Below are positions 211-52,794 of a stretch of DNA of 64,000 nucleotides, in pieces. How positions within the stretch are numbered: position 1 is the stretch's first letter; each line of letters opens with the position of its first letter. The position numbers and the translations under genes are program-made. Location: NCBI RefSeq assembly GCF_964355755.1, contig NC_092680.1, forward strand, positions 20,251,001 through 20,315,000. Reading direction: 5' to 3'. The notes beneath the pieces were generated by a model. That model was not told where the DNA came from. It worked only from the letters and a program-made list of their open reading frames with translations, and searched no databases. The stretch is from Antedon mediterranea. Lineage: Eukaryota > Echinodermata > Crinoidea > Comatulida > Antedonidae.

Positions 211-3200
211 TTTATCTGGATGCCCACATAAGGACAAAATTCCCCAAAAATGTAAGTAAATTTAAAATGGATTTCAGTCAAACTGTTTAGTTGTTCATAC
301 TGTAGATTGCAAATTGAAAATGTTCCATTTTTGTTTAGTTGGTTGTTTAAACAAAGTTGCTCTGTACAAAATGAGTTGATATATTTTGTTCTAATTTTGC
401 TGGTTTCATATTTAATATTTTTGATGGCATCTTCATAGTTTGTTTATTTTAGAACAATTGAAAGATTTCATATGAATTAGACAGTATATTCGTATAAAGA
501 TTCTGAAAATTAAAACCATATTTGTAGATTACAATTTCTGTAAAAAAAAACTAAATCCTGATCCTGATGATCACATGGTCACTTTGACAAAATATAACAT
601 AATAATAATAAATTGTAAAATAAATATAAATGAATCATATTGGAAATGTTGAAGTAAGGTACTATATTTGTTTTCCTGTATTTTTCTTCCCTAAACATGT
701 AAAATCCTGATATTTCATCATATTTCCATTTTACTAGGTATAGATTTCCGTACAATGCTATCTTATTTTCTTCTTTTTGTTGTTAATGTTATTTGTTTAC
801 TATGTTATGATATTCCAAAATAAAAAAAAAATAATGAAATTAATATCTTAACATCATATTTCTAATTTACTAAAGTACGATGCTTTTTTTTCTGTTTTTA
901 ATTATGTTATTTATTCACAATGTTATGATATTCCAAAATAAAAAAAAAATAATGAAATTAATTTCTTAACATCATATTTCTAATTTACTAAAAGTATACA
1001 GTAGTTATCTGTACAATGCTTTTCTTTCTGTTAATAATGTTATTTATTTACAATGATATTCCAAAATAAAAAAGATTGAATGAAAATAAAATCTTTTTTT
1101 ACTATGTTTATTATTATTTTTCCTTATTACTTATGTATAATTGTTTTGTTAACTTATTATATATTGATTGTTTTACGAGTCTGTGATTACTGGTAATTTA
1201 TGAGTGGAAATAGGTTAACACTACGTTTTCTTCAGGCATTATTCTTAATTAGTTTTTCTTAAACACAGATCAGTCTTATTACTGTGTGAGGCATTTAGCT
1301 TTTTGAGTTATTAATGTATAATTTGTCATGGAATTTTTCACTTTTACACTAGCAAAATAGACTTGCGGAAACGACTATTAATTATTATAAATTACTAAAT
1401 CTTAATCCGTTAGATGCCATCTTAATCTTGTTTTTTAATTTTTCATTTTAAATCAGTTTTAAGTGTTTTTAATAAAAAATCAATTCAGTAAATTATTTTG
1501 AATTATTTACACCATGTTAATTTTTTATAACTAATATTTTGAAGTTGATTTTTGTTAACATGTTTTATTGTTTTATTCTTTGTTTTTCTTGTTGCACAGT
1601 ACTTCAGATCCACGATCAAGTGTTAAAGTAAGCATACATATATTTTTTTAATTAAATATTGAATTTTTGTTATTAATATATACAATATTTCAATGTTAAT
1701 ATTACAGGGGTTTTTGACTAAATATCTCCAGCCCATATACAAACAGTTTCACTTTCTGGGTAATTAAATAAAACCTAAACAAATCCAGAGTTTTGAATTT
1801 ACAAACCCTCCACCCCACGTTCCTTTTTCACCTAAATCAGGGAGATTCCCATTTTACGAGGAAAGTTACTTCATGTAAGATCTAAAGCTCTGTCTACACT
1901 ATCAAACTTTATGTGACAAAAAAAAAATGATGTGCCCATATATGGATATGATGATGTCATACAACTACCATATTTGGATATATCACTACCATATTTGTGC
2001 ACATCACACTTTTTTTAATCAAACAAGTTTGTTAGTGTAGACAGAGCTTTATATTGCAATGCTGTCTCGGTCAGGAGCTTGCGTTCTTATCATAATTCAC
2101 TACATCATCAATACTCAATACGCACTTCTCTTGTATATAGTTTTGATATCATGCACATCTTCATGTTTTATGAAATCAAGGTTTCTTCAAACACATTATG
2201 AAATGTTTATAAATTGATGAAACTACTTTATTCATGTTGTGTTAGTATAGTACCAACATCCTTGATGGTAAGTTGACAGCAGATTGAAATATTACCCATA
2301 ATGCCAAGAGCTAAATCTTTACCAAGATTCAAAAAGCAATTTCCTTTTCATACCAACTGTTGAGATAGTCCCTGATTGCTTAGCTTTCCATTAAAAATTG
2401 AGATGGAAACTGTATTCTAGACTTTTGTTTGGAATATATTTTGATCAAGTATTTTGTAGGCAGCAAATGAGCCAGTTGCGTCCTTCCTTGTTACTTGTAA
2501 TATATTGATTACTTTTACTTTTCTCTGTGTGGTACTAACTACTTTACATTCGCTGTTAAGTGATTTTGTCAAATCCAACATTTCTTTGTTATTGTTTAAA
2601 AATTTCGACTGACATTTGAAATTACTTCATCATGTTGTCTTCAATATCTTTTCTGCGATATTTAATCCATTTTAAATACGTGTACCAAATTAATAATTTA
2701 AGTAAATATCATTTAAAAGAAGCTTTTAAATTTATTGTTATTCTCTATATTCTTTGATTATTAAATTAATAAACATAACTTAATAAAAAAATAATTTTAC
2801 AAGTTATTCCTTTAGAAGTGTTTAAATTAATATTTCACAAACTTAATTGATCTACAAATTTTCCATACTTGTAAAATATTTATTTTCAGTATGGTATTAT
2901 ATGAAGTTAATATTATTTTTTTCATTTAAAAAGTAAAAATAATGACTATAATAGTTTACACAGAACAACGTATGGGCATGGTTTTCATGTATTAGATAAA
3001 ACTGCACAAATGTACAAAAAATTAAAAAAAATATATTATAACTTTCAAACAAACAAAAAACTTAAAAATAGATATACAATGATGAAAGCATTTATTTTCT
3101 GAGCTACAGCACTTTCTGAATTTGAATAATCTATAAAGAAACTTCTGACCAATCAGAGAGCAGCATAATAATGTTGCTATGATTCAAAAGTTTTGAAAGT

Positions 3201-6200
3201 TTGTGCACATGTAAAGAACCAACAGTCATTTAAACAACAGGGATCGGCTTTTTATTATTACAAAAAGTAAGTATTATTATAAATTTATTATGTGCTTTAA
3301 TGTAGGTATAACCTAACTTTATTAACAAATTAGTGTAGGCCTATTGGGAACATTAATTAGGAACCCTCAATGGTTGGTAGTTTATACAGCACCACTGAGT
3401 AACAGTCAGTAGTGTGGTGGCTGGCAATGCTAGTAAGCCAATGCACAGGCAGGCTGGAATAGCCCAGGCCTAGAAAAGTATAGCCTACTAGGTAGGCTAG
3501 GCTAGGCCTATTATTACTGATAGTGACTAGGCCTACACTAAATTAATTAATTAATTTTAATAAAGGGTGATGCTAGGCCTCTTCTTGCAGCTTTTATTTT
3601 GTTTTATTTTTCTATTTAATTCGTTAATTTAATGATTCTCTTTTTCCCACAATTCCAGATGGTTTCAGAAACTGTGAAAAGTTCAACTCAAGAAGGGTTA
3701 AACAAATCTAAGAAACCAAGAAGGATGTAATGCATTACTATTATTATTTGTTTTTTTGTTAAACTTAAATCTTTAAATAAAAAAATACTTACTTTATACT
3801 GGGCCTACATATTTCAAATAGACTGGCTATACTATAGGCCTTGCTAAATAAATAAAATGTTTTATAAACATTAAAGATTTGAATATAATAATATTTTATA
3901 GGCTACTTTATTCTAAACAATGATGACTAATTCGGTGTTTTATTTCATTTCTTTGAAACAATTATTTTATAATATGTTAAAGTTTTTAAGAAATGTGTAT
4001 GTTTTACCTGCTGAAGATGGAATACATTTCACAATTGACCTACCACTAAGTAATTAAACGATTTTTTTTAGTACAGTTGTATAATTCTAATCAAGAGGTT
4101 AACCTATTAAAAAGCACATTTATTAATTGTATTTATTGAAGACAAGTATGAGTAAAGATGGTTGTACTGAATACCATATAGTCCTTTAGCTTAAAGATGT
4201 ATTGTCCCCCTAAAAAAATAATTCTTGACAACATTTTTTGTTGAAATGCAATTTTAATATAACATAATAGTTAGCCACTTTGACCAAAAATTGGATTGAA
4301 AAAAATGTATTTACATGAAAAAAAACTGTAATTTAAAGCAAAAAAATGGTCAAATTAGCTGCCAGCCAATGGGTATTTGGTTGAATATAACCATTTATTT
4401 TGTCATTTTATAAGTGAAAACATTATTTTTTTTGGTTTTTTTTTCTACTGAAGTGATTAACTTGATTAAAACTACAATATAACATATTTAAAGTCTGATA
4501 TAATTAATCTTCATTTTTCATCTTTTTGAGGGACAATACATCTTTAAGTTATAACAATATTCCATTATTATGAGCTTTAATTTCCCCCTATGTTGTTATT
4601 TCAACAAAAGATGATGACGATGTTCTATAAATAAAGCCTTCGATTCCGTAACAGAAGTAAATTAATATCTAGTTCATTTTTGTTTGGTCATTAATCAGCG
4701 TTTTGAGAACTTGTTTCTCCAATAAACCTGTCACTCCCATCGCAATATTATTGCTCGCAAATTTCATGTATTAATGCCCATTGAAATAATGTAATAGTCA
4801 ATGCATAGGAAACAAAGTGAAACATATTGAAATTTATTTTAATGATGAATGAATATTCCTCATTTAAAATCAATAAAATAAAACTCTTTTGTAAGTGTGA
4901 TCCTGATTGTTGAAACAAGGCTCAGGGACCAGCAAGAAAACTTAGAAACTATCTGAAATACAACTGGAGTAGTTGATAAACAAGTTTATTCCTGGGATCT
5001 CCTTAAAATTCTTGCCAAGTTGTTTTTACTGATCCAATCAACATAATTAGCTATACTCAATCAACCAATCAGAATGCTGGATTACATCCCACCTGTTCAT
5101 GGAACTTTAATATCCCAGAATTTTCAAAGGCAATAATCGCAAGTAAGAGAATTGAAGATAATATATGTAATAAGTTTCGCTTGAGATGTTTTGAGTTTTC
5201 ATTTACAAATTGGCGGATGCATTTCGTTGATTTCCGTTAAATTATTCAATATAATTATGAATTGTAAATGTAAAAGGAAGACATTTATGATTAATATTGA
5301 TAGAAAATGATTAACTTGCTCATTATATTATTAATTAAATGTGTATCTCTTACGTTTCTCTTTCTTCCTATTAAGTAATATTTTATTACGAATTATACTT
5401 ATAGTGTGGTTTTTAAACAATATTATTTCTATCTATTATTATTAATTTTAATAGTATGAACCAAAAAAATATACATACCAAAGTGTGATACACTTACTAA
5501 AATTTAATCAATTCCAAAAGTGTTTTTGCTACCTACACCATCCAGTTGACTATTATGCCTAATAATAATGTCTATTACGTGCCTAGCTTACCTGGATAAA
5601 CCGATAAATGCCATATTTCTCCTCGAAGAGCGAGATATACTTGAAAAGTAGAAAATTCATTGAACACCCCTTTCTCTAAATGGTACAGTCCACAAACCTC
5701 AAGTGGGAACATCCCTACAATTCACCATCATCATTTCTTTTTTCGAGACATGAAATAATAATAATATTTACCGTAATAGAGGAATTATTTTTATAGTTGT
5801 AGTCTACATCTCTCAAAATTTTGGTGCCAATTTTGGAAAAAGTTTCAGAGCTTTTCATCCTTAGATTTTAATCACATACACAAATATTATGTCTTATCAA
5901 CAAGGTTGATATTCTAGCTAGTCTATGTGACTTTTCAATGATTAACCTACCAAAATGAAATATACATAAGGAAAGAATAAAAATATTGCCAGATTTTCAT
6001 TTTTTACTGTCAATATTGGTATTATTTATTTAAAAAAATAAAGATGATGTAAATAAAATAGATATGACTTAAATCTACATCAAAAGTTATATAAATAACA
6101 GCATCATTTTTAATAATGAAGAGGAAAATGGTGCATAGGTGATTGTTTTAAGGCAATGGTGCGGGCAAAGGGATTAACAAAAGTTAACAGTATCCACTTT

Positions 6201-9200
6201 TTTAATGATAAATAACACAAATGAATGTTAATAAGTTTGATTAGTTGGCAGGTGGAAGTGACAAGTTGTTGCGTCATTTACACCTGTACTCTAGCTGGTG
6301 GCTATAATTCTACTAATTGGATAGTATTGGTTGTAATGTATAAAATGAGTGTTCATTAATGCTGTCTTAACAGTTTGCTTCGGGCCTAATGCTCTGTCTT
6401 CACTATCAAACTTGTGACATGTGATAAAATGTGATGTGTCCATATATGGACATGATGATGTCATATCACTACCAATTATTTGGGCACATCACACTTTTTT
6501 TTGTCAAAATAGTTTGATAGTGTAGACAGAGCTTTACAATACAGTTAGGTTTCACAATCTTGTTCAAGTATAATAACTACCTATATTAACAAAATTACAT
6601 TTTGATACACCAAATATTCAACATTAAAAGCTTTACCTAACAGCATACAGACTATTTGTTCATTCATGGTACCCTGGTTGTGTGTTTTTGCGTAAGGACA
6701 CAAGCACCTACTAGCGAAACTTACCTGCAGGCTGGCTAAAACCATTTTAATAAACAATTCTTAAGCTCTATCTACACTAGTTGGACAAAAAAAGTGTAAT
6801 GTGCCTAAATATGATAGTGATAATGATATGCTAAAATAAGGTAGTGATATGACATCATCATGTCCATATATGGGCGCATCACATTTTGTTGTCACATAAA
6901 GTTTGATAGTGTAGACATGGCTTTAAACATATCACATCACAGACCTATTGGTGCTGATTATGTTCAAAAGTCAATTTAGACAAAATGTGAATCAATTTTT
7001 CAGACTTTATATTACTTTATTATAGAATGTGATATTTTAATTTAAATAAAATATACGTTGAATAAAATTTAATTTGAAATAAAGATGAGCAAAACTATTT
7101 TAATGCATACTTGTAACTTAATAACATTATTTAGATATAATATGTTTATTTGTATAATTTTCTGTTTCTTTCAGATGCCCAACGCCTGGTTGTACTGGCA
7201 AAGGTCATGTAAATAGTAACAGAAATTCACACAGAAGGTGAGCTCACAAATTAAAATAATTATAACGTCTGTTACTTGAAAACTTTGGTTACATTCAAAC
7301 ATAGATTTTGCTGGTTTATGTTATTACACTAGTGACCCTTTTTTGTGCTGTATCTTTAATATTATTTTTGCCTGTTCTGTAAGTTGTGTACATCAATCAT
7401 TGTGTGTGCCAGATTTATCTGTACCAGTTTCTTTGAGCTGTACCAGTTAAATCGTACTAGTTTTCTTCAGAGAAAAACACCAGTTATTGTATTCCGTATC
7501 AGTTATACCATCATACTGATCACATACACATAGCGGTAACTGTGTTCTGTACTGCTTTTTCAGTTCTTTTTACCATTGAGTTAGTCTGTATGGAACTAGT
7601 TATGTGATCATCTGTGTGTATCATGTTTCCATGGTAATCAGGTACTATCACAACTTGATGATTTGTATACAGGAGCATTCATTCAGTCCTAGTTTATTTA
7701 GCATATCGTCTTACAACTAGAATGTCATAAACACACAAACCCCTCAGTTTGTTAACATTTATGAATCAGAGAATGCAATTTGTATCTTTATTTTATGTTA
7801 TCATTTTGCAATTTGATATTAAGTTGTGTTTTTTAATCTTGAAAATGTAAACCAAAGCATATATTGAATGCATTACATTTCTTTTGTGTTCTTGTTTCTT
7901 TCTAGTTTGTCTGGCTGTCCAATTGCAGCTGCAGAGAAGACTACTAAAGGATCTCGAGATAGTGGCTTGACAGCGGCTCAAGCTCTTGCTCAGAGCAGGG
8001 CTCAAGTTAACAGGTTAGTCGCTTACTAATGCAACATTAGGCCTACCTGACAGAACTAAAGCAAAAAGGATCGTGGCTTACCCAAACCAGGTTTTCAGAA
8101 CTAATTTCATTTCTTTAAACTAAGTCTTCTATAACTTGTAGTGGAGCTGATCTCATAAATGGAGCTGTATCTTTCATAGAATGTAATGTCCAACGTTCAA
8201 GCCTGACCAGTGCCAAGGCTGTAACTTCTACCAATATCCAGGGGGTAAGCCTGACCAGTGCCAAGGCTGTAACTTCTACCAATATCCAGGGGGTAAGCCT
8301 GACCAGTGCCAAGGCTGTAACTTCTACCAATATCCAGGGGGTAAGCCTGACCAGTGCTAGGCTTGAACTCATAACTGTTTCTATTAACTCTCTAAATCTC
8401 AATCAGTTTATACGCTGTAATTGGCCAGCTATGTGTATAAAATAAAAAATATAAAAAATAACAAAATTTGTTTCCATTTTAGGCCAACTGGAATGTGTTT
8501 TGTAAAGCAAGATGTTCCATCCCAGGGATACGTTCCCCTTTTACAGCGAAGCAACTTGGACTACATGTACGATGGGCCTAGCCATACATTCCAGAGCACA
8601 GCTCACAAACGTATTGCACCAAAAATCATCAGTCCTGACATACCACCAGTTAAACGTTTGCCTCTACCGAGTGACTATGAAAAAAGTAAAGTTGACAATA
8701 CGATTAATTCATCGGCTGCACATCTTGCAGCTTCCGCAATAAACCTTTCGATCCGTGCGCCACGTATGGATACGGTTTACAACAACCAATCGGCTCCTTC
8801 CCCTCCTCAGGTTCAATCTCAACCTATCGTATCGGTACCGTCCCCTATTATCCATCACCAACCTCAAGTATCTCAACCACCTCAACCGTCAACGCATCAG
8901 ATACCCGTACCGCAACCAACAAGTCACGAAGTAATGAAACTCGATTCAAATGGCACGCTTGATCTGAGCATGAGAACCACGTCCACTGTGAAACATTCCG
9001 AGCCACATAGGTCGTTGACCTCGATGGCACCAAGCGTTCAACAACCGACCTACTCAAGCCCACCAACGCTTCTGACCATTCCAAGAACGTATGAACACTC
9101 ACCGAATCTTAACGAACAACCTCAACAAAGTCTGCCCTTGTCACAAACATGGTATCCACCTCCTGTGCAAAACAATGATGAAAGGTAAGACATATACAAT

Positions 9201-12200
9201 AATTCACCTTCTACTAACATTATTGTTTTACAGATTACTAATTAAACCAACTTATTTATCAAACGTACTCAAATTTCTTGACTAATTTGATTCAAACTCT
9301 TTACTGACTAACAAAAAAAACTACCGGTATACAGTTTTCTGATTAACAAACCCCATTTAAAGAACTTTGTATAGCAATTATTAACAAAATATTTTCATTA
9401 TCACTAACATTAACAATGACTAATCAACTGCTGTAGACTAACAAATACACCTTGCATGATGACATAATGTAAACAATACATATTATTACTATATTATTAA
9501 GGATGTTTTTAACAGTAGAAACAGAGTTTTCACTTACAAGGTACAGAAGTATTAACATAAGAACCATAAACTAGTTCTAACTAAAATCTATGTTTGCAAT
9601 TGATTCTTTTTTCTGTGTTGTCAATATTGTTTTTGTCGTTTATACTTTTTGTGTTGAATGCTATTGTTTTTTTATAAGTGTTTCTTTCTGTATAACTTTC
9701 CCTTAAACTGTTTCATATCAGGTTAATGATTATAATTGAATAATTTTTCATACTAATTTTCATTAAAACCATCTTGCACTTTTATCTTGCTGTGCGGCAT
9801 TGGATTATTCAGTTACGCTGCTGCTATGTCCCACAAGTTTCCTCTTTATCAGCCTCCTCCTCCTCCATCGTTTCATAAACAACCTTACCCTGACCCTCAA
9901 AAGCGGGATCACCTAAGGTAGGCTATCACGTTGGTGGTTTATGTAAGGTGTTGTTATTTGTTCTTGGTGTTTTGTAGGGTTATGGTGATATGGTGTATTC
10001 TTGTAGTAACTTGTTAGCTATGTTTTGCATGCATGTGTTTTGTTATTATTACACTTTTTTAATGCCTTTCAAGTACTGTATATTTAAAGTTCTTTCCCAT
10101 TAGTTTATTGAAAATATATTATTTTAAATGTCGAGATAATTATTGTTTTTCTTGCATGTTTGTAGTAAACATTATGATAAGGATACAACTGGTTAATAAC
10201 ACCATTATTTTTTGACAAATATTTTGGTGATGTGTGTCACTTAAATATTCGTTTTTAATAAGAAAATTATTATTTTGTTAAAAAATGGTACCCATACCCT
10301 CAACATTGTCAATTTCTCAGTAATTTGCCTTTGGATTTAAATGGAGCCTTGCTTGTTTTATTCTTTTGTTTCACAAGATATTTCATCTTTTCTTTGCTTC
10401 TATTTAACTGTGTAAAACCTTTTTTTTTAATTCAATATTATTATTAGGACTGTTAGTAATTTGTGGTGCATGTTTGAGGTTTAATAGGTTTTTGTACATT
10501 GCATGTTTTTTTATATTTTTCTGTACAACCTACAATTAAAATATTTGGAATTTCTTACATCTGAAATTGTTGTACAATTTTCTTAAGTATGATCTTGTTA
10601 TCATAACCTTAATACATATTTGTCAAATTGTTCACACCTTACCCATAGATTATTGTAAATATTTTATTTTATAAATATTGAATATACAACTACTTTCATC
10701 TCTTCATCTTTTTAATTTACTTTGGCTTTATTACATTTTTGTTGGAACTTTATAAATTTGCTGCAATTATTAAAAAAAAAAAACATCATATAAATTTTTT
10801 GATTGAATATATTATATTTCATTCTTAATTTTATTTTTGTAATGAATTTAATTTTATTCTATAACCCTTTTCATTTCATTCATAAACTACTGTACATAGT
10901 TTCCTATTGCTGATATCAAAAGATAATTTCATGCTATAGTATCAGGGAGGTGTAATTACCTCCCTGATACTAGTACAGTATCTTTAAATTGTAAATTTAT
11001 AATTCTATAGTAATAAATTGGCTTTTTCAGTTATTGCTATTGCATCCATTGAATAACTATCCTCTTCTGATGTTGTGACTCGTGTATGTTGATATTAAAC
11101 TACAACAATCAATATTAACTTATTTCAATGTACACTTGGCTAGTTCTCGTCGGCAAACTTGTAAATTAACGTTAACTTATTTGTTTTGCACAGCTGTCCA
11201 ACGCCAGGATGCGACGGCTCGGGTCATGTGACCGGTAACTATTCTTCTCATCGGAGGTACATACATTTCAAATAGAATTTACGTGTGTTATAGGTCATAG
11301 GTTAATCAATAGAAAGTGATTGTTTTATTTGATAATGAAACAGTTATTTTTGTTAATTAGGCATAGAGTTGTGTAATTAAGTATTACTTAATTAATGACC
11401 TATAATGGTTTTTGTGGTGTACTGTATGTTTTAAGGTCATCTAGTTATAATGGGGATACACATTTATTTTTGAGTTTTTAGAATATATATTCAGTAAGGA
11501 GTAGACAAGATTATTCATTTAAATTACTATTATAATTTAACTGTTTGTGTATCAATTTATTTGCCAGACTTGTGTCTGTTGAGAGCTAGCACAGTGTAGT
11601 AGTATGCAATTGTACTTGTTTCAAATGGATAGGAGAACTAAATCTATGTGAATATATATCTAAAGCTCTGTCTACACTATCAAATATTATGTGACAACAA
11701 AAAATGTGATGTGCCCATACGATGATGTCATATCACTACATATTTGGGCACATACCATATTTGGGCACATCACAAACTAGTTTGATAGTGTAGACAGAGT
11801 TTAAGTTATAAAGCACACATTGACCTATCAGTGGACTATGACCTATACCTGGTTTTAGTAACTGTTGTTAATCCAATCAAAAATAAACCATACTACTTTT
11901 ATAATACTAATTTATTGCAAAATACTGAAACTGAATAACAAATGCACTTCTAATCATCTAACACTTTCTACTTTAGTAATTTAAATTAATACTTTTAAAC
12001 TTTACATCACTTTCATTCGTTCCCATAACATATTATTAATTACTAATAACAGGATTCTGAGGTTTATACAATTTGTGCATATTTCATATTTTGTGTTGTT
12101 GTAAATAGTTTAATATGCTATTGTTTGTTCTTGTACAGCTTATCTGGTTGTCCAAACGCAGACAAGTCTCAAATAGTGCAAGGGTCGCAAGATCTACGGT

Positions 12201-15200
12201 AAGCAAAAAAGCATTAATTGCAACTTGCATGTGTAGGACATGCAGCTAATAATAACATGAGGATGTTGGCATCTATGCATTGCTTGCCATCCATGCATTG
12301 CTTTAATAGGAAACAAACATACTACTAACAGAACCACCTGATTCTCTGTATGTTAAGGTTAGGTTACTTGGCCTATGATACAGCCATGTGATGTATGTGA
12401 CACTGTATCGTAGAATTTTCCTACGATACTGTAAAATTATCCTTATGGCCTATGATACAGGCATAATATGTGATATGTATGTGATGCCATATCACAGAAT
12501 TTGCCTATACCACTATACTGTAAAATTAGCTGTATGGCCTATGATACAGGCATATTATTGATATATATGTGAGACTGTATCATAGAAGTTGTCTATGATA
12601 CGGTACATAAATTATCGATACAGTACCGAGAATCTGCTGACAGAACATATTGAGAATGATGGGAGTGAAAACTTTGGCTTACTCCATTAACTGACAAAAA
12701 TACAGTTTTATTGGTTATATTTTTATAGATCATATCTGTATTCACATGTGATGGTCATACTTTTTGCGATGAAATTTATTCTACAACTAAACACAAATGA
12801 ATCAATATTATTTGTGAGATCATGTGTTTAGTCAGATTGGTAAAAACATTTCTAGTGAATTATAAAATATTTACATATTGAATAATTGTAAGTAAATTGT
12901 TAAATTCATTCATAATCCTCACTTCTGTTCACTCTAATATTCTGTGTGTGCAAATGTTACAATATACAGGTACAATACTATGATACCTGCACAGTCTAAT
13001 GCTAATCCATAACACTATGTGACATGTGTAAATTTACTAGGTGTCCCACAATTGGTTGTGATGGCTCTGGCCACGTGACCGGCAATTACTCGTCTCATCG
13101 CAGCCTCTCTGGCTGTCCACGAGCCAAAAAGAAGGGTCTTTCACCGGTTAAGAAAGAAGGAAGCGCTGAAGAAGATGAACTACTTATCAAGTGAGTTGAC
13201 GTGTGCTTATTGGGGCATGTAAATATACCCTGCCTGCATCTTGGCATGTTGCTGTATTTTGTATACTAAAATATTAAAGCAAAAGAAAAAATATGTTGCC
13301 ATTATAATATCCAAGCTATTGCAGTATATTCCATGCAACCCAATTGCCTCGTTGTTTGTCATTTCTATGTGGGAGGAAGAAGGGGTTTTGGTGCAATCAT
13401 GTATGCACCTGTTGTTAATGAATATTTAAAACGCTCATAACTATCACCGTCATCAATGTTCATACATTATCCAGTTAAACCATTTGTTATAATAATACGT
13501 CATCAGTTTGTTATTACATAATAATTATTACTAATGCTAACAATATCAATCACAAACTACTAAAAATAATAATTGAAAAGACATTCCATTTATAGTTTAG
13601 GGGTGTTTTGGTATCAGGATTGACTATAAATAAGTCATAAATAAGTTATATTTCTTTTTTCTAAAATTCTTTAGTTTAGTTCTGTATTTCTTTGTCTTTT
13701 AAAATCTTTGCTAGGTGCCCTATTCCAGGCTGCGATGGCACTGGTCATATCACGGGCAAGTATGCGTCACATCGTAGCGCGTCAGGTTGCCCGAATGCGG
13801 CTCGGGCTGGCTACAACGGCCCCCAACAGTCTGTACCTAAGGATAATATAGCTAATTACATGCTTCTGGAAAATAATGAGAATGTGGCACCCTTGTCAAT
13901 TCCAAAACGAACGATGAAGATTGAACCAACGATGAAGTAAGTAGAGTAGGGATTTGAATGTAGCTAATAGGATCTTCCTACTTCCACTCAACGGTTTTAT
14001 GTTACGTACTTTTTACAAATTAGTTATTATGTCAATAATCGTTAAAACAAGACTAACAACAATTCACCATATCGCATAATCCCCCCATAAAGCTTTGCTT
14101 TGGTTGCCATACAGGTTTCAGACACTTGTGAGACAACCATTGCAATGCTAGCAACCTCAGCTACTATTATAATACATCCCATATTTTGCTCCCTCGCTGG
14201 CTATGCGATATGGCGAATTCTACGAATCCCCCACTGCCTTTGGTTCCTGGACAATGAAGTCATTGTCCTCTGGGGTATTGTGTGACAATTTATGTATTGT
14301 AAGTGATGCTAATGTATCATTAAATATATAACAAAATTAAACAATTTTAGAAAAAAGAAATATTTTTGCAATTCCATATTCTAATTTTTAAAAACGACTA
14401 ACTATCTATCTATCAAAGTAATGAGTGATTGTAGCATTTAATGCAATGAAAAATAATATATACGATAAAAGACATTTATTTCACATCAAAATTTTCATTA
14501 ATTAATGACTTTTCCATCCAAATTATGAAAAGAAAGATTCCCAAAGTGAGATGATCCATGTAGGTGTGCGGCTTTTGAAATCATCTATTGTATTAATGTT
14601 GAAGTTTTAAAACAAAAATAATTCTGTATTCAGTATTTGATTAATAACAAAATGTATATGCATGATTCCGCATGTATGTTAGTTGCTTTTGATTTTCCTT
14701 CCATTGTGGTAACAGAAAAAAACAAACAAAATATGTTTATTCGCAGGGATATGAAAATACTACTAAATGTCGCAATCTTTAGAATTAGCTCTACTAAATA
14801 CTGTATGTCAAAGCATGTAGAAAAAATGATTACTTGTGATGAGCATACAACATCCTAACACATTTAGTAACATTCTAACTAAAATAGAAGAAAAATGTTT
14901 AATGTAATAATATTTTGTATTTTGTTATATCATTTGTTCCAACAATCGTCCGTATCAGAGGGAAAATGGATAAAACATGGATAGCTGACCAATATCCCTT
15001 CCACCAGATATAGCCAACTAATTCTTTATATTTGTCTGTGCTATCATGATGTGTAATAACAACAATAAAATCATTTTTGTGATGCCTTGCTTGTTTTTGT
15101 TTATGATTGATAAAAACCAATCAGTGTTGAAAAAGTTTATGTACACAAACTTGACAATATGATGTGTACATAAATATGGTTCACACACAATCTTATACTA

Positions 15201-22873: not shown

Positions 22874-26496
<3,623 letters not shown>

Positions 26497-33482: not shown

Positions 33483-33498
33483 CCCCCCCCCCCCCCCC
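33483..33498. repeat. C16 homopolymer
   Basis: Sixteen consecutive C residues in AT-rich intergenic DNA. A similar C14 run lies in an SRCR-gene intron at 56768-56781. Confidence 0.9.
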
Positions 33499-40532: not shown

Positions 40533-40789
40533 GTAATATCAAATGGAGTAAATTTATATAATCGAATTTTATATAGATGTTCTTTCATTTTGACGCGAAA
40601 GATAAAATAAAGTCGTACTGTTTATCGCGTAGATGTAAATCCTATTTGTTTTCATTGATTTGGTGGCGTGCCGCATTGCCTACTGGGTAATCCGCTTGCC
40701 GGAATGGCTGCCCATGGAATTATCATTTTTTGAGCGTCAGTTCCATATCTTGCGCCACTACGTGGCGCTATACGATCTTTGCTTCAAAT

Positions 40790-41945: not shown

Positions 41946-44900
41946 ATGGCCGAGACAAACACTGAACAAGTAGTAATTTCACAAGATGAGCCTCCTTTGA
42001 AAAAATTAAAAACTGTCAATGGAGAAATTGGGAACAACAATGACGAAAGTAGCAACGGAAAGTTGGAAAACAAGCCCAAAGAAGTGCTGAATGGAACCAA
42101 TTGTAATGGAAGTAGTAAGGAGAAAACGAAGTTGGTGAAAGATGACGATATCGTTACTGATGACAAAGAAAAGAATGAAGAAGCTACACCAAAGGAAGAG
42201 AGATTGAATGAAGACAAAGAGACAACAGAAACCAAACCATTAATGGACACACCATCAAATGATGAAATGCAAAATGAAGAGAAACGAAGTATTGGCGCTG
42301 AAGCCTCCAAGGAAGCTGAAGACGTAGGCGACAAACAAGGAAATGAAATTCTACGTGCTAGTGATGAAGATCTAGATTTATCCCCAACAGAACAGCGTAC
42401 AGAACAGAGTAGGCCTACAGAACAGATTACAGAAAAGGGTACAGAACATGCTAGTGAACCACTTGTTGAAGGTATAATAGATTTAGAATCAATCTAATTT
42501 ATACATCCTCATAGACCATGCAAAATAAAAAGTTCGAAATTATAAATCCCCTTCCCATCTTGATTTCTAGTTTTGATTTAAGCCTGTATCTACGGGTTTT
42601 GCATTTTTCCTGAAGCACCCCTTTCACCAACAGTGGAAGTGATGGTAGGCCTGCAGTATAAATTGGTTTGTCCTACTTTCGTGACTCATTATGTTTTTAG
42701 GGTGGCTAAATTCCCTTTTGTAGGGTAAACAAAACATACCCTATATGAATCCTGGCTACAGACTTGAGCTTGCTAGTATTATGGACTTTGATTACTGCAG
42801 TAATTACTGTATAGTATTTGCTGGTATTAATTATCAATGTAACGGTACCTACACATTTATTTAAAAAAATACTTTTAGAATTTAAACAATTGTTAAAATA
42901 CCTGTATGTGGATATTTAAACCAGGAAAATATTATTAATATAATTTTTATTTTCTGAGCCTATACTTTTATTTTCAAATAATAAAAAATTGTCTTAATGT
43001 CAAGTCAAAATATAATAATAAACGTTAAAAAAAAATATTTTTAATTTTATAGATTACGATGTCTTTTTCCATAAGATAAATACAATCATTTTTTGTCTTC
43101 AGCAAAATGATAAATAATGCCAATCCTTTATTTTCATGTCTGCATGATATTGAACATTTTGTATAATGATATAGAAAAAAAATATAGGTTGATAAATTAT
43201 GTACTGTAAAAAGTGTTGTTTACACGTCATAGCTTTGCCATTTGAACAACCAAGCACCTACACAGAAGCTGCGGAAGGACCCTCTTCTACCCCTGTAGAA
43301 ACTGAAGACCCAAAGGTTGATGGCGGCGATGTACCAGAAATGGACTGGAAGGATGGAGTTGCCTCTTTAGAAGGAAGTTCCCTAAAGGTAAATGGAATCA
43401 CTCAATTAACATAATTTTTCATATCAAATCACTCATTATAGACTATTCCATTGTTTAGATATGGGTTGTTTTTATGTGTTATTATTAACATACATTGACA
43501 AATTTTAACTATTCCAATAGTTGGTTAAAATCTTTTTTATTTTATTAATTAATTTAGGTTAATGCATAAATGTTAAAAATTGATTATTTTAATTTCCTTT
43601 CAATTGATTTTATACGTTAAAAGGGAAGTTTTTATTTCATAATCTTTGTATGGTTATTAAGTCAGTGTCTGTAGCTGTACTCATTTCCTGGCGTTGGGCC
43701 TACCTCGCAGGATGTGTACAATACAACAAAGAATCATGGAGTTTCTAATATTTCAAACTTTCCCTCTTTTCAGGTATGGAATATAATAATACTAATCCAA
43801 ACTGCATTATTAATTTATAATAAATATTACTAATCTTTTATTGCATAAGGAATATGTTTACAAACATTGTTTTTTTTACATTTTTTACAATATTATAACA
43901 ATTGCCCACTGTTATAATAATATAAAGTTTTAGTTTTAAAACAAATTTTATTAATGTAATCTTTGAAATTAAAGGAATGGTTGCTGTCTTGTATATTTTA
44001 TGTGGTTCAGTAATTTCTTTCAACTTCAGATAACAAACCTTGGCTAGGCCTACTTAAACATATTTAAAAATTGTATACAATATATGTTTGTTAGAAATAA
44101 ATTACCTAGTAAACCTTAATTCCTAATATTCATTTGAGGACATATTGTAAGTTGTATTTGTTAAAATAAACATAAAGATTACCAGAAGATTCTGTTTCAT
44201 ATGGTTAAATAATAAAATATTTCAACATATTATATTATAACATCAAGGGATGAAAATACATTGATATTTCAATGTTGTGATGCGTGCGCCATATCACGGT
44301 GAATCAATGCAATCATTTTCAGATGATGATTATAATTATAATGAGAACATACTGTTTTTATTTATTTTCATTCTGTAAACATTTACAATAAACACCCAGC
44401 CCAATTTAATCCTTAACACACAAGAAATAGTTTCCATTGGGGTCCTAAATAGGAATAATTCATTTATATAGCGCCCTTTTCAGATCTATACACATGTTAA
44501 AAGCGCTTCAAATAATAAAGTTAAAACCAATATAAAAATTACTACAGATTCATAATCAACAGTATAATTCTGTCTCTATAAATGTCTGCACTTAAGGTTT
44601 TACAATATTCGAAGAGCTTCATAATTAATGAAGTAATATTAGATGTTTTATTATATTTCTCATCCATGAAAGTTGGTTTCAAACTCTTTTATTTCTTCAT
44701 TCTATCTGGTTACCACAGAAAGTACAGAGACATAATAACCAGAGATGTAATGATCACATACAATACTGTATAGTAGATACAATTAATTGATTTGAATATT
44801 AGGACATAAGGTACATATTAAATAATGTTTATGCAATGCTACAGCATATATATTTTTACAATGATAACTTTGTGTTTTGCAGTTTAAAATGAATGAGTTT

Positions 44901-47900
44901 GGAATGATAGAATTAATAAATGATGATGATGAATCAGTAGATACCAGTAATAAGTTCAACTCTAGTCTACCAGGTACAAGTCAAACAAGTAAATCTAAAG
45001 GTAATGGTAGCTTTACAACCAAATAAATAGAAAGGATTTGGTAGCCTGTCTGGGTAGTTAGGTAGCCTGTCTGGGTAGTTAGGTAGCCTGTCTGGGTAGT
45101 TAGATAGCCTGTCTGGGTAGTTAGGTAGCTTTGCAACTAAATATATATGTATGTAACAGTAGAGAGGATATTATTCAGTAGTCTGTTTGGGTAGTTAGCA
45201 GGCCTTGTCTTTTAAGGCGAGCGAGTGCGATCACTCACCTAACTCACTTCTAAACTGCCCTTGAGAAGTGCGATTTACAACACGCTTTAATTTAAAATTT
45301 AAACTTCTACACACCAAAATACAAACAACACACCTACAGCATCCCTGAATGTATTGAGGAGTGCAATTTGTAGCACACCTATAATTTTCAAAAAACAAGG
45401 CCTGGTTAGGTAGCCTGTCTGCATCCATTTTATTGCAACCAAATAGAATACAGTTAGAGGGAATGTCAGTTGGTAGTCTGACCAAGTAAGTAGTTAGGTA
45501 CTGGTAATAATAGAGATTTTAAATGCTAGACCATAAACAAAATTTTGGTTGATTATTTTTTGCTATTCTTTTTACTAACTTAAGTGTAGTTAGGAACCAT
45601 ATAACTGTACGTACCATCATTTAATTTGGAATATTTATACTTGTAGTAAAAGCTGAAAAATTAGACACTATTATGTCGGATGTATTAGTGTGTGAACAAT
45701 GTGGAAAGACGGGAAAGTTACATGAATTCTGCCGCTCAGGTCGTTTTTGCAGTCAGTCATGCGTTGGAACTTATGCTAGCAAGTAAGTTGGTTATAAGAC
45801 AATTTTGAACACAACTATTTGTGTTAAGACATCATGGGTATTTTAAAGCTCTGTTTACACTATCCAATTTTATGTGACAACAAAATATGATGTGCCCATA
45901 TGGACATGATGTCATATCACTACCATATTTAAGCATATCACTGCCATATTTGGGACATCACACTTTTTTTGTCAAACTAGTTTGATATTGACAGACAGAG
46001 CTTAAAAACATTTCAATAAAAAGATATTGTTTATTATTATACAGACTTGGTAGAACATGTAAAACTATTACTTTAGACCGAGTATAGCCCCATGCTTGAG
46101 TCTAATCCAACCCCTAATTTAGGCTAAATTGATTGATTCGGATGCAATCTGAAGTATAATTCTACTCACCAGCTTTGTTTTCATTGCAGACAAGGTACAA
46201 TGCGAAAAGGAACTGAAAAGAAACCAATAATCTTGGAAGCAAAAAAAAAAGATGGCCGCAAAAAAAAGCTAAAGTTAAATGCGAATGATAAATCAAAAGT
46301 TCACGGTGATTTAAAGATGAAATTACAAATGAAAGGTACAGATTGGGTAAAAGCAGCGGAGAAACCAAAAGCAGGTTACTACCAAAAATTGTTATCTACT
46401 GCGCTCTTTTTGTTTGTCGTTAAATTAGTTTGTTGCTGTTGCAGATTTATGGTGAACTTTCCCATTTTGCAATGACCTATGACCTAATTGTTTTGGTATT
46501 ATTGATATGAAATATTTCCCTTAAGTTGTACTCACATTCCTATTCACATAGAAGAAAGAATTTGTTTTGAGGGTGATTTTTTAAAGGGTAAGCGTGTCTT
46601 GACCTGGTGTCGAGAAAGCACCTCTAATTGTCCTGTATGTACATAATGAATTATTAAGACACACATTGTAATTAGGTCCTAGGTCATTGCAAGTAAAAAA
46701 ATACCTATTATAGCTGTCAAAGAGCATGATTTCTGTTTGTACAAACATTTTTATTAATATACATTTTACATGCAATTAACCATTTCTCTGAGTGTTCTCG
46801 CATGCACTAACCATCTCTCACCTACCAACTCTGTTCACCGTAGCTTTTCCTGTTCTCACATGTAATTACCAACCTCACTGCCTGCTTTGTTCATAGAGAA
46901 TATGCTCTGTTTTTTTTACATTTCTCCATTTCATAAAAAAAACTGTTTTATGTCTGATATTTGGTTTGGTGGACTCAGATTTGTTACTATTCAATTGAAA
47001 GTGCCATTTCCAGTTGCCTTGTTCAGTATGTCATCTTAAAGCTCTACACTATCAAATTAGTTTTTAAAAAAAAGGGTGATGTGTCCAAATATGGTGGTGA
47101 TATGCCCAAATATTGTAGTGATATGACATCATCATGTCCACATATGGACACATCACATATTTTTGTCACATAAAGTTTGATAGTGTAGACAGAGCTTAAC
47201 CATGATTGTTGGTTGTGTACTAATGTATATCGTTATTTGTTGTTTTTCTTTGATTCACTTTCGAACTTGTCATCATTAAATCTATGCTATTTACTTTGTA
47301 GGAAAAAAGAAAGGGTTTATCTGGTCACATTATTTAGAGCAAGAGAAAGCAAGAGCAGCGCCAGCTAGGTTGTTCAAAGATGTAAGGCCGCTTTTCACTA
47401 TTTTAAGATTGACATTATTAAATAACATATTTGTTCAAACTGAATTGAAAATTTACCATAGATGATTTTCTTTCCAACAGCCATTTCCCACGGTAAAGAA
47501 TAATTTTCGTGTTGGAATGAAATTAGAAGGAATTGATCCCAAGCATCCATCTATGTTCTGTGTTCTGTCCATCAGTGAGGTCAGAGGTTATAGGTTAAGG
47601 CTTCATTTTGATGGCTATTCTGAATGTTATGATTTTTGGGTGAATGCAGATTCACCAGATATACAATCAGCTGGAACATGTGAGAATTCAGGCCATAAAT
47701 TACACCCACCAAAAGGTATGTTGTTATTTTTAGATATTGAAAATCAACTAGGAAAAAAAACCAACAATAAAACAAGATTTCAGAATACTATACAAACCTG
47801 GCTATTGAACTGAACTTATTTCTTATGAATTTCCTATCATTAAAGTATTACATACACAGCATTGGGTAGTGTGAGGATGCTCTGTAGATTCTTAGTAGGA

Positions 47901-50900
47901 ATGGCATGGTTAACAGTGGCGTAACGGCTATGAGTGCTCACTGGCTAAACCCAGGGGCCCCGGAGTGTATAGGGGCCCCTAAGCAGTGCCCAGAAAAACG
48001 GGCATTAAAATATGTCCAAAAAGGCTAAAACCGTCTAAGACCTCCAGCGTTGGAGGGTCACTTATGGTTCCTAAACTAGGGGACCTCGGGCCTCTGCATT
48101 ATGCCACTGGCGGTTAACATGGTTTAACAACTTAGTTGAGAACACTGCTATAAGTACATGACATGATGTATTGAGACGCAAGCATATTTCTGGAACACTA
48201 AGCTATTCAACTCAACAAACATCTCATAAATTCATGTTTTATTTCTAGGATTTTCTGCAGACAGTTTTGTGTGGAATCAGTACCTAAGAATGAGTAAGGC
48301 TACAGCTCCACCTAAAACTTATTTCAAGACATGTGAATCTGTGAGTTTTATACTATAGTGATTTTAGTAGAATTACTAGGTTGTTTGTGGCCTTAATAGT
48401 GTCCATATCACAAATATACCATTGGAGAAGAAGTCTGTCTTCATATTCATGATCACATAATTAATAGGGAGCTGTCATTAGACTGAATTGACCCTTCTAA
48501 AGGTCAATCTTTTTAATGAAATTTGCGATTACCAAAGATGTAGATATTTTTATTTATTTATTGCAGGAAAACCCGTTGCATAGTAATGGATTTAAAAAAG
48601 GAATGAAATTAGAAGCGGTGGATAGAAAAAATCCGTCATTAATATGTGTAGCGAGCGTCACTGATGTGATGAACAATCGTTTTCTAATTCATTTTGATGC
48701 ATGGGAAGATTCTTACGACTACTGGTGTGACGCCACGTCTCCGTACATTCATCCGGTTGGCTGGTGTCAAGAAAATAGCAAGATTTTATCCCCTCCAAAT
48801 GGTACATTTATTTCTTCTTTATAATAGGTGGCTCTTTAGATTCATATACAGTCTATACAGATTCCTTTGATTATCCAATATAATTGAAATTACAATGCTA
48901 ATATCTTGGTTTGCCTTAAATAAATATAAAGGAAAAAAATAACTATCTAAAAAATCTTTTGTCGTATCCCACCTGGCGAGTACTTGTAACGGTCCCCACT
49001 CTGCTTTCTTATTAAAAAGATATACTGGGGCTATAGGAGTAATATTTTATGTTCTTGTATTTCTCCAGATTACCCAGATGTTGCTAACTTCACATGGGCA
49101 GATTATCTTCAGAGAAAGAAGGCCCTTGCTGTACCTGCTAGAGCTTTCAAACCTGTAAGTATTATGGTCATGTAGGCCGAGCACCTTTTTGTTATGTTTT
49201 TAGTCGCATGCAACATGACTCTATAGCTCACTATGTCGGTCGGTCGGTAAACACTAACTCAAATTTGCGCACGCGACTGCAGCCATGTATATGGTCTTGT
49301 TATCAACAAAGCTTATGAAACCTCTCTGTACGTATATTGTTATTATCTCTGCAGTGTATAAAAGAGGAATTTCTAATGTATTTTTATATTGGACCAAATA
49401 AAGAATAATAATAATAATTTCTTTCATAGAGTTCTTTAGCATATGAACAATTTTACATTATAGATATTTCTTTGCTTCTGTTAAATGTGTTGATTTTTTT
49501 TATAGAGATCACCACTCGGTTTTCAAATAGGAATGAAGTTAGAAGTTGTTGATAAACGCAATCCTAGTCTGATTCGAGCAGCAACCATTGAAGAGACCGA
49601 AAACCACCGTGTTAAAGTCCACTTTGATGGTTGGTCTGACATCTATGACTACTGGGTTGATGATGATAGTCCAGACATCCATCCTGCTGGTTGGTGTACC
49701 AAGACTGGTCATCCGCTTCAGCCTCCGATATGTCCAGTTGACCTCATGGATAAGGAGTAAGTGACCAGTTTTTATAGTTCAAGATTTGTAAACAGAGGTT
49801 ATAAATATTAACTAGAGACTATACTGGATGTTTTCCTTCTAATCTCTAATAAAAATAAACCCAAACCTCTACGGTGTTGTTCTTGACCAGTAATACTTTC
49901 AAATCCATGATTTGCAGAAGCTATTTATTAATATATTTTATAATATAATGATTGGATTATTTATTATTTATAGAATTGGCTGCCCAACTCCTGGCTGCAA
50001 TGGTATAGGCCATATCAAAGGTGCTAAATATACCGGTCACCACAGGTATGTCTGATTTTCTTAGTTCATGTATCAATTATCTAGATGAATTCATAACAAA
50101 CATTGATGCAATAGCCTATAAAATTAAATTATCCTTGTTTAATTAATAGAATTATAAATATGTTCTTGCATTAATGTTAGGTTGGACTTTCAACAAATTT
50201 GAATTATACCAGTGTGTCTTGTTTTAGAAAATGTCTTTGTTTTTCTGTAAAACATTTGTAGGTTATTTGAGTATAAAAATGCATTTACTATATTTTTCAC
50301 CATACTTTTTAATGTCCAGTGATTTGAGATTATTATTTATTGTTGTGCCATTGTGTATTGTTTTATTGTGCAGTTATGTTTAACATGTTTTATGTCAGGT
50401 ATTTTTTTATCTATATTGGGCCCATGGTTCCAATTCTGGAAGTTTTCAATATTTAATAAATACATATTTATATTTCTAGTGCGTTTGGATGCCCATATTC
50501 AACATTAAATATGAACAAAGAGGGTATTATTCAGGACCGTATTGCACTGTCTGGAACTAAGGTGGTACCAGTAGAATTAACCAAGAAAGCCATACTGGGT
50601 TCACCTGAATTCAAGTTAGTATATCTTTTTTTTATCCCAAATTTCTGCATACATTTGTATCACAATTTTACAGAATTATAATTGTGTTTGTCTGTAATCA
50701 TATAGTATTTTTCAATTCCATAGCTATTTAATGTGAATTTTTCAAGTAGTAAAATATATTTATTTTATTTTTATCAGTTAAAACTTTTGTTTGTAATTAT
50801 ATTAAATCTTTCTATTTTTGTTAGGTGTCCAACATCTGGCTGTGAAGGGTATGGACATGTGACCGGCAAGTATTCCTACCATCACAAGCTATCGGGCTGC

Positions 50901-52794
50901 CCTCTATCTCTAAACAATGTTACCAAGGTTAAAAGCCCAAGTCCACCGCAGAGAGGGCGTCCTCCCCTAGCAAAGAACATAGCACGTGGTAGAAAAAAGT
51001 AAGTTTATTAGCTGTACAAGACCTGATTAACAAAGTAGTAATAACTTGAGATGAGTGGCTAAGCATAAAAGACAATCACTCCTCGACCATTAGTTCTGGT
51101 GGTAGAACAAGTCTTCACATTTAAGGACTTAAAAGTGTACATATCTGGTGCACCTACAAGAACGCAGTGCATATTTTTTAGTAGTAGTGGATAATCCGGT
51201 GTTCTTTTCCATATATGCCCTTATTAATGGCCCTGTCAACAACCCTACCAGTGCCACAAGAGTGGCCGAATGTCCAAATGAGATGAAAGATGATTAACTA
51301 ATAACTCATTGTCTTTATTTCAACCAATTGACATAGTAGATCTGCAGTTAAGATACTGAACTAAGTCTCTCATGTTGGCTATGTGGGTGCCCTACCATTT
51401 GACCACTGAGGCTTTGTACACATTATTATTACATTTATTCATATATTTCAGAGTTAAAAAGTCTTTGGAGGCCACATTAGGAGAAAGAGCTGAGAAAGGT
51501 ATCAATGTATTTCAATAAACAATTTGTTCATAATAGAAATATATTTGTTTTTTATTGTTGCTGGCCATAGCGTTAAGATTCTTAAGTTTCTGGCTGTAGT
51601 GGAGCCGTTCCTAACTTCCAATGCCAAGGTCGAGGATTCTATCCTGATTATTTATCCATCCTGTCGAATTGGCGAATTTTCTCACTATTGAATGTTGTGA
51701 AATAAATAAAATAATTTGTGTTTGAAATTTGTTTAAAGAATCTTCAGAAAAAGACATCTCTTTATTTGTCTCTCTTTAACAACAAAAGATGTATGCACAA
51801 ATGTTTTTTATCAAACTGAAGTTTATTTTAATGTTGTTATGCTGTCGGAAGTTTGGCAACATTATGCACGATATCATCTTAAACACTTAATCAATCATGG
51901 ACTTGTTAAAAGTTGGAAAAGCTTTTGAAAAAAATCCGTAAAAGCAGAGGCCGATATAAACTACTGTACTTAAAATCTTCCCTTTATATTTTAAATTGAA
52001 ATCTTATGATACTTGTCCATATATAATCAAGTTTAAAACCTTTTTAATGTTTTTCAGATGGTAGCAATCTACACAATCAACTTCACCAGTCTGTGTTTAT
52101 GTCCGCAATGTCGCCCCACCCAGTCAAAGATTTACCACTCTGTTGGCAACAACATACCAAACTGTTACCGGGCGTGTCGGAAATCCCAACTAGCATTGTA
52201 TCCAAGTGGAACCAGTCTGATGTGTCTGAATTTGTTAGCAGGCTGCCCGGCTGCACGGAACATGCCAAGAAGTTTTCAGAAGAAGTAAGTAGTTAGTTAG
52301 TCAGATCAGTTTTACCTGATAATCTTTGACATTTCCCAATATTTTGAGTCTTCCTGTTAAGGTATAGTTTCTCCCGATTTGTTAGTTTATGAAAACTAAT
52401 ACCCAATCTTGCCGTAATATACATTTTTTTTACTTGTTAACTAAACTTGAAAATAAGTTCCCCAGCGCATTTCCGACTTTGCCACTCCTATTTTCAGATG
52501 CCGATGCGCTGTCAAAAGATTGATTGATATTTTTTATTTGATATGGTCCTTTCTTTTTTGAAAATGTTTGAATAAATATCTCGATATTCCCAAGTTAGTT
52601 TTTCATACAAACCAAATACAAGTTAACAATATTTACTTACATTTGTTTTCACATTGTTTTTTTAGCAAATAGACGGTGAGGCTTTCCTACTTTTAACTCA
52701 GGCCGATCTTGTAAAGATTATGAATATAAAACTAGGCCCAGCAGTGAAGATCTTTAATGCTATTCTCATCTTAAAAAGCCAGGAGGACCTATGA
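41946..52794 (+). CDS. L3MBTL: L3MBTL-type MBT chromatin protein (FCS finger, 3 MBT, 2 CCHHC, SAM)
   Basis: Exons: 41946-42471, 43233-43387, 44883-45000, 45647-45782, 46190-46335 (or 46374), 47302-47381, 47481-47715, 48249-48340, 48567-48801, 49069-49154, 49506-49756, 49974-50045, 50480-50614, 50825-50998, 51452-51498, 52058-52284, 52666-52794. All phases agree; 947 or 960 residues. Short form: acidic low-complexity N-terminus; [20 protein letters not shown] spanning exons 2-3; FCS finger (C282, C285, C301, C305); MBT1 about 388-496, MBT2 497-603, MBT3 604-686; CCHHC fingers at 690-715 and 757-781; SAM about 865-945. MBT2 keeps the methyl-lysine cage (D515, N518, F539, W542, Y546); MBT1 has His at the Asn position. 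Expected role: nuclear reader of mono-/dimethyl-lysine that compacts or represses chromatin. An AG at 41935-41936 implies a non-coding first exon upstream. Confidence 0.95.
44455..44520 (+). repeat. TATATAGCGCCC/AGCGCTT repeat, second copy
   Basis: CATTTATATAGCGCCCTTTT and AAAAGCGCTTCAAATAATAA match the segment nested at 32742. In an L3MBTL-like intron. Confidence 0.6.
45040..45130. repeat. 21-bp minisatellite, 4.3 units
   Basis: GGTAGCCTGTCTGGGTAGTTA repeats at 45040, 45061, 45082 and 45103 (one G-to-A change), then decays. Related single units flank the neighbouring element (45181 and 45408). In the L3MBTL-like intron starting at 45001. Confidence 0.9.
45199..45404. mobile_element. 206-bp miniature element with GTTAG duplication
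   Basis: CAGGCCTTGT at the left and ACAAGGCCTG at the right are perfect inverted ends. GTTAG occurs directly on both sides (45194-45198 and 45405-45409). Inside are paired GAGAAGTGCGATTTACAACA and GAGGAGTGCAATTTGTAGCA direct repeats. It is inserted into sequence related to the 21-bp minisatellite. Confidence 0.8.
45845..46003. mobile_element. MITE-A copy 12
   Basis: AAGCTCTGTTTACACTATCC at the left and CTAGTTTGATATTGACAGAC...GAGCTT at the right. The internal modules are as in copy 1. In an L3MBTL-like intron, about 60 bp past the FCS-finger exon. Confidence 0.85.
46467..46692. mobile_element. Miniature inverted-repeat element with DR1-like ends
   Basis: TTGCAATGACCTATGACCTA at 46467 and its near-complement TAATTAGGTCCTAGGTCATTGCAA ending near 46692 form inverted ends about 200 bp apart. 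Each end contains two TGACCT-type half-sites spaced by one base. In an L3MBTL-like intron. Confidence 0.6.
47039..47197. mobile_element. MITE-A copy 13
   Basis: Left AAGCTCTACACTATCAAATT has lost CTGT. The right GTTTGATAGTGTAGACAGAG is intact. Internal modules run in the CCCAAATATGG-first orientation. In the L3MBTL-like intron before 47302. Confidence 0.85.
47914..48109. mobile_element. CAGTGGCRTAA-ended miniature element
   Basis: CAGTGGCGTAAC at the left and TTATGCCACTG at the right are inverted ends. The inside is GGGGCCC-rich. The 8 bp outside each end are ATGGTTAA and GCGGTTAA (6 of 8 identical), consistent with an aged 8-bp target duplication. It lies in the intron between the MBT1 exons. 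Confidence 0.7.
49197..49316. repeat. TAGTCGCRTG dispersed repeat, copy 1
   Basis: TAGTCGCATGCAACATGACT, CTATAGCTCACTATGTCGGT and CGCACGCGACTGCAGCCATG occur in the same order and spacing as at 57291. In an L3MBTL-like intron. Confidence 0.65.
51585..51672 (+). mobile_element. Partial tRNA-type SINE
   Basis: AACTTCCAATGCCAAGGTCG and GATTCTATCCTGATTAT resemble the middle of the SINE at 62694 (CTTCCAATACCAAGGTGCAG, GTTCAATCTGACC). Degenerate. Confidence 0.4.

Follow-up and report, generated by a model that had tools for sequence, protein, structure and literature searches.

Consecutive MYT1-family, PCMTD and L3MBTL-type genes in Antedon mediterranea: a probable remnant of an ancestral animal chromosome

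A MYT1/ST18-family gene, a PCMTD gene and an L3MBTL1/3/4-type gene follow one another in the genome of Antedon mediterranea, and the triplet is probably made up of the orthologues of MYT1/ST18, PCMTD1/2 and L3MBTL1/3/4 and is a remnant of the ancestral chromosome behind the four opioid-receptor regions of vertebrates. The window, meaning the whole stretch of 64,000 nucleotides that was analysed, is G000:C11:20251001-20315000, on a contig (C11) of 22,267,044 bases in a genome of 354,431,138 bases and 18 contigs. It was determined from profile and structure-sequence searches that the MYT1 gene lies on the plus strand, the PCMTD gene on the minus strand and the L3MBTL gene on the plus strand. MYT1 and PCMTD are therefore tail-to-tail, and PCMTD and L3MBTL are head-to-head. 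At least two of the three genes are gene regulators. The shared ancestry of the vertebrate regions is already published and is not new. The locus contributes a low-copy state for families that are used in studies of vertebrate genome duplication, and it narrows the linkage of L3MBTL to MYT1-PCMTD from a chromosome arm to neighboring genes, which is a modest addition to gene-order history.

Identity and structure of the three genes

The initial annotation had described the three genes as consecutive, with MYT1 and PCMTD tail-to-tail, over positions 211 to 52794 of the window. The order is borne out by family and structure matches for each gene and the orientation is correct from the strands. 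The right end of the span stands, as 52794 is the stop codon that closes the SAM exon's open frame; the left end does not mark the start of a gene, as 211 is an internal MYT1 exon. The features of the window are as follows:

1 to 16320, plus strand: 3' part of the MYT1/ST18-family gene (second half of finger 2, fingers 3-6, MYT1-domain-like exon, coiled-coil-like exon)
22874 to 26493, minus strand: PCMTD gene (modelled exons, match to the PCMTD1 structure)
29331 to 29451, minus strand: 5S rRNA-like copy, between PCMTD and L3MBTL
41946 to 52794, plus strand: L3MBTL1/3/4-type gene (N-terminal exon, FCS finger, three MBT repeats, two CCHHC fingers, SAM domain)

Our own small gene finder produced a PCMTD model that is short by one exon and an L3MBTL model that has neither MBT repeat 2, nor the two fingers, nor the SAM half-domain, and in which MBT repeat 3 is shortened. 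Because these models are incomplete, the domain coordinates given here are those of the family searches and the open frames. In a score scan the frames between the genes were weak (7.0 to 10.8, on both strands) and similar in level to frames opposite known exons, and they were judged to be non-genic. One place each was found in the genome for the MYT1, PCMTD, EYA and EPB41 families, although a further copy may have been overlooked.

The first gene has six MYT1-type CCHHC fingers on the plus strand, at window positions of about -5278, -1540 (with its second half from 211), 7173, 11195, 13039 and 13713, which places it in the MYT1/ST18 family. These are six of the ten zf-C2HC (PF01530) matches in the genome; two others are in the L3MBTL gene, one is on C6 and one is on C8. 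Finger 5 matches the solved MYT1 structure 2mf8 with an E value of 9e-32. The 5' part of the gene (finger 1, an acidic exon and the first half of finger 2) is upstream of the window, at G000:C11:20245722 or earlier, and the gene starts 5.3 kb or more before the window begins. A C-terminal coiled coil is a feature of the family, and the frame taken as the last exon matched generic coiled-coil models only, all of them sub-threshold. The parts of the gene within the window are:

211 to 251, plus strand: exon that completes finger 2, with a phase-2 acceptor after base 210 and an approximate end set by eye
7173 to 7241, plus strand: first half of finger 3, followed by a phase-2 intron
8493 to 9185, plus strand: exon with a weak match to PF08474, the MYT1 domain (20.9 bits, below the cut-off of 27)
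11195 to 11257, plus strand: first half of finger 4, followed by a phase-2 intron
13039 to 13125, plus strand: finger 5, unsplit (PF01530, 2mf8)
13713 to 13799, plus strand: finger 6, unsplit (PF01530)
15889 to 16320, plus strand: open frame with stop taken as the last exon, coiled-coil-like

A 48-base tandem repeat (3.3 copies, 100% match) was also observed at 8199-8357, within the gene and just before the MYT1-domain-like exon.

The second gene has a PCMT domain that resembles PCMTD1 more closely than PCMT1: the best match of the first coding exon is the PCMTD1 structure 9oma (E value 5e-54), followed by a PCMT1-type enzyme, 1r18, at 2e-8 (1i1n, 2e-5). The C-terminal exon scored 22.5 bits against the SOCS/BC box, just below the cut-off of 23.5. 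PF01135 has four matches in the genome, of which one is this gene and three are close together on C10 and are probably one gene. The available text of PMC11514484 makes general remarks only on PCMTD1/2. The exons are:

26187 to 26493, minus strand: first coding exon, gene finder
About 25696 to 25833, minus strand: exon omitted from the model, recognised by eye; on its own it has no Pfam match
25317 to 25456, minus strand: exon, gene finder
24683 to 24806, minus strand: exon, gene finder
22874 to 24168, minus strand: exon, gene finder

The third gene has the features of L3MBTL1/3/4, namely three MBT repeats, CCHHC fingers after the MBT repeats (two) and a terminal SAM domain. The genome contains 12 matches to PF02820 (MBT), three in the window, two on C7, three on C5 and four on C9. 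MBT repeat 2, the only repeat compared with solved structures, was best matched by L3MBTL3 (3e-84) and L3MBTL1 (2e-83), with L3MBTL2 at 9e-59, these being whole-chain E values summed over repeats. The domains are:

45685 to 45771, plus strand: FCS-type zinc finger (PF21319), above cut-off
47517 to 47720, plus strand: MBT repeat 1 (PF02820)
48603 to 48803, plus strand: MBT repeat 2 (PF02820)
49533 to 49727, plus strand: MBT repeat 3 (PF02820)
49981 to 50046, plus strand: first half of CCHHC finger 1, the second half being in the exon that starts at 50480
50823 to 50909, plus strand: CCHHC finger 2, unsplit (PF01530)
52669 to 52773, plus strand: second part of the SAM domain, at 26 bits against a cut-off of 23 (no match in the exon piece before it)

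Human L3MBTL proteins are annotated with one CCHHC finger; the finger at 50823-50909 is a second one.

Age of the MYT1-PCMTD pair

In human, MYT1 adjoins PCMTD2 on 20q and ST18 adjoins PCMTD1 on 8q, and both pairs are in tandem on one strand, whereas here the same two families are adjacent tail-to-tail and L3MBTL is next. Human L3MBTL1 is also on 20q, far from MYT1-PCMTD2. The initial annotation had proposed an origin of the MYT1-PCMTD pair before the vertebrate duplications, and this fits what was found: the pair appears to be older than those duplications because it is present once here, as a single adjacent pair, and recurs in human both as MYT1-PCMTD2 and as PCMTD1-ST18. The latter is named as a single human locus in the available part of PMC3824414.

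One ancestral animal chromosome, of which the triplet would be a surviving piece, probably gave rise to the four duplicated opioid-receptor regions of vertebrates. The MYT1-PCMTD adjacency would have formed before the duplications and L3MBTL would derive from that same chromosome. The likeliest reason for the persistence of the triplet would be slow shuffling within chromosomes, possibly aided by regulatory sequence spread through the neighbors. The sequence holds no hint of a joint function of MYT1, PCMTD and L3MBTL. The orientation of the pair, which is unlike the human tandem arrangement, speaks against the explanation as a chromosomal remnant, as does the location of most of the families examined below. 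Recurrence of the triplet in distant invertebrates would mark its order as ancestral.

The closest known system is the opioid receptor/peptide paralogon. As far as the available text of PMC2865548 goes, the MYT, L3MBTL, EYA, EPB41, MYB, SERINC and DLGAP families are in the vertebrate opioid regions, and MYT, L3MBTL, EYA and EPB41, neighbors that expanded in early vertebrates, surround the opioid genes on four chicken chromosomes (2, 3, 20 and 23). The paralogon has up to four copies over whole chromosome regions, whereas here MYT1, PCMTD and L3MBTL are directly adjacent; the word PCMTD is absent from the main text of that paper. Neither MYT1-PCMTD microsynteny nor the MYT1-PCMTD-L3MBTL triplet appeared among the matches listed from open-licence papers. 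PMC6784235 was rejected as a source on st18 synteny, as st18 stands for stage 18 in the available part of it.

Linkage of L3MBTL at the chromosome level

Nine families of our own choosing, five of them published (EYA, EPB41, SERINC, MYB and DLGAP) and four expected on general grounds (TFIIS_M, TPD52, peroxidasin and syntrophin), were located in the genome, and three of the nine (EYA, EPB41 and peroxidasin) have a gene on C11. Both genome matches to the EPB41 C-terminal domain are on C11, at 8.24 Mb. All four EYA matches are on C11 at 0.54 Mb; each is below the whole-family cut-off (best E value 5e-33), which was made for the full protein, and here the exons were scored apart. Two of the 42 peroxidase matches are on C11 at 5.39 Mb, the others being on C3 and C6, and the C11 gene was assigned to peroxidasin by eye from the Ig-like exons upstream. 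Genome profile searches placed none of the other six families on C11: TFIIS_M has three matches on C6 and C1, TPD52 two on C1, SERINC 13 on C1 and C6, the MYB C-terminal domain one on C7, syntrophin PH_17 one on C8, and GKAP (DLGAP) two weak matches on C2. Three of the nine families are likewise represented on C1, and three on C6. With C11 making up 6.3% of the genome, the binomial tail for three or more of nine is 0.016; it becomes 0.044 when all 13 family-contig pairs are counted, 0.086 without the peroxidase family (two of eight) and 0.035 for the five published families (two of five), all without multiple-test correction.

These results, together with the published background available from PMC2865548, give weak to moderate support to the derivation of L3MBTL from the same ancestral chromosome as MYT1-PCMTD. 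The support is placed at this level because the families are few and self-chosen and because C1 and C6 collect three each. The suggestion of the initial annotation that L3MBTL belongs to the same ancestral block gains this weak to moderate support at the chromosome level from EYA, EPB41 and peroxidasin, and is tempered by the six families that lie elsewhere and by the equal counts of C1 and C6; a tight ancestral block of all three genes is putative.

Alternative explanations for the triplet

The chances are about even that MYT1-PCMTD is the ancestral pair and that a rearrangement confined to their common ancestral chromosome brought L3MBTL beside PCMTD in this lineage. The distance between L3MBTL1 and MYT1-PCMTD2 on human 20q favors such a move, and EPB41, peroxidasin and EYA are 12 to 20 Mb from the triplet (20.3 Mb) on C11, which shows that gene order along C11 has changed; the separation seen in vertebrates could just as well be derived. 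This scenario overlaps the preferred explanation of a chromosomal remnant, in which the L3MBTL adjacency may be of any age, and the likelihoods that we attach to the explanations do not sum to one.

It is unlikely that L3MBTL came from another ancestral chromosome, that its linkage is a lineage-specific accident and that EYA, EPB41 and peroxidasin are on C11 by chance. The six of nine expected families that are elsewhere and the counts of C1 and C6, each as high as that of C11, favor this reading, but L3MBTL, EYA and EPB41 share one vertebrate paralogon with MYT in the available text of PMC2865548 and all three are on C11.

A shared regulatory landscape, that is, a genomic regulatory block centered on MYT1 in which PCMTD and L3MBTL are bystanders, would act within the preferred explanation as the cause of persistence, and we consider it doubtful. 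Myt1-family proteins act in neuronal specification according to the part of PMC6684318 that was available, and such blocks are discussed, in the portions of the literature at hand, as a cause of old gene neighborhoods. Against this, the space of about 15 kb between PCMTD and L3MBTL holds several copies of a dispersed repeat as well as the 5S-like copy.

The CCHHC finger common to MYT1 and L3MBTL

The splice sites of the CCHHC fingers were assigned by visual inspection against the consensus, without transcripts. MYT1 fingers 1-4 are each interrupted by a phase-2 intron, which follows base 2 of the codon located four positions ahead of the last Cys-Pro, and L3MBTL finger 1 is split at the identical site and phase; MYT1 fingers 5 and 6 and L3MBTL finger 2 are unsplit. 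The upstream acceptor, where it was visible (MYT1 fingers 1 and 3-6, both L3MBTL fingers and the finger on C6), is likewise of phase 2 and coincides with the first Cys or precedes it by one or two codons. The finger on C6 is in an unlinked gene (G000:C6:6244501-6250500) that we take to be KAT6-like from a motif, and its finger has an intron at the internal site and phase of MYT1; the PHD-like piece of this gene had no Pfam match. The zf-C2HC gene on C8, which is presumably KAT7-like from a motif, differs from the split fingers of the other three genes, as its finger of the same family (PF01530) is split elsewhere, in phase 1, in the Gly codon before the His.

A 26-codon finger has 78 possible intron sites, and because an accidental match among these is unlikely, the MYT1, L3MBTL and KAT6-like fingers may be taken to descend from one exon pair. 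The finger common to these genes is an old exon module and is no proof of local origin; the neighboring MYT1 is not shown to be the source of the L3MBTL finger, because the KAT6-like gene with the same site is unlinked. It was considered whether MYT1 and L3MBTL were already adjacent when L3MBTL gained its fingers from MYT1 by local exon duplication, which would give the linkage and the shared domain one cause. This is favored by the phase-2 sites common to the two genes before and inside the finger and by the scores of L3MBTL finger 2, which mostly favor MYT1 (99 to 117 against five of the six MYT1 fingers and 91 against finger 3, with 97 against L3MBTL finger 1), but the presence of the same intron site in the unlinked KAT6-like gene weakens it and makes it very unlikely. 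A link between the MYT1 and L3MBTL fingers was not found among the matches listed from open-licence papers. The locus also raises the question of what accounts for the sharing of a single finger module, with a single intron site, among MYT1, L3MBTL and the KAT6-like gene.

Contig integrity and flanking sequence

An assembly join, which the initial annotation had named as a possible refutation, is extremely improbable as the source of the adjacency: a join without N is possible and reads would be needed to exclude it, but there are no N bases in the window or in 90 kb of each flank (244 kb altogether), the composition is fairly even (GC 0.31 in the window, 0.26-0.34 per 4 kb) and MYT1-family and PCMTD genes recur as neighbors in human (PCMTD1-ST18, in the available part of PMC3824414).

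The survey of the 90 kb upstream and 90 kb downstream of the window named four further genes. SF3B5 is about 83 kb upstream (PF07189, E value 5e-39; solved SF3B5, 6e-49) and PPIE is 72-81 kb upstream, where an RRM piece matches solved PPIE at 1e-25 and the cyclophilin piece matches cyclophilin A (4e-15) better than PPIE (6e-13). An HMBOX1-like gene about 46-49 kb upstream has an HNF-1_N match above cut-off (1e-10) and a homeodomain piece below cut-off, and the matches of this piece to solved structures are weak, with two of the 15 attributable to HMBOX1. A Neurensin/TMEM74-family gene is 39 kb downstream (PF14927, 1e-26). The human relatives of SF3B5, PPIE, HMBOX1 and Neurensin/TMEM74 are presumably on 6q, 1p, 8p and 6p/20p, respectively. 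These places would fit the paralogon; the comparison is post hoc and was left out of the count.

Beyond L3MBTL, an adhesion-GPCR-like gene at window positions 59586-63543 on the minus strand has two 7tm_2 pieces above cut-off, with WSC-like (at its start) and GAIN-like pieces below cut-off. A second such gene was seen by eye in tandem, also on the minus strand, at window-coordinates 84664-86733, and the piece of it that was searched matched no family. The flanks also contain an RCC1-repeat piece and a BEN-like piece (both below cut-off), rhodopsin-type receptors, retroelements and further frames, one of which has 670 codons (window-coordinates 133471-135480). Upstream of the window, an array of similar Ig-like frames on the minus strand was seen by eye from about -76400 to -54100 in window-coordinates. 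Long retroelement-like frames, also upstream, extend from -30388 to -26610 and appear by eye to be of the DIRS type with reverse transcriptase; their N-terminal piece had no match above cut-off.

The 5S rRNA-like sequence between PCMTD and L3MBTL is full-length and scores 74 bits. It may be a dispersed 5S-derived element, because a second, partial copy (81%) is present at window-coordinates 93312-93377. A MITE-like dispersed repeat with 21-base units, the number of which varies by copy, has 48 matches in the 244 kb, and the window accounts for 17 of these. Its copies include:

15640 to 15800: MITE-like repeat
47054 to 47197: MITE-like repeat
58030 to 58164: MITE-like repeat
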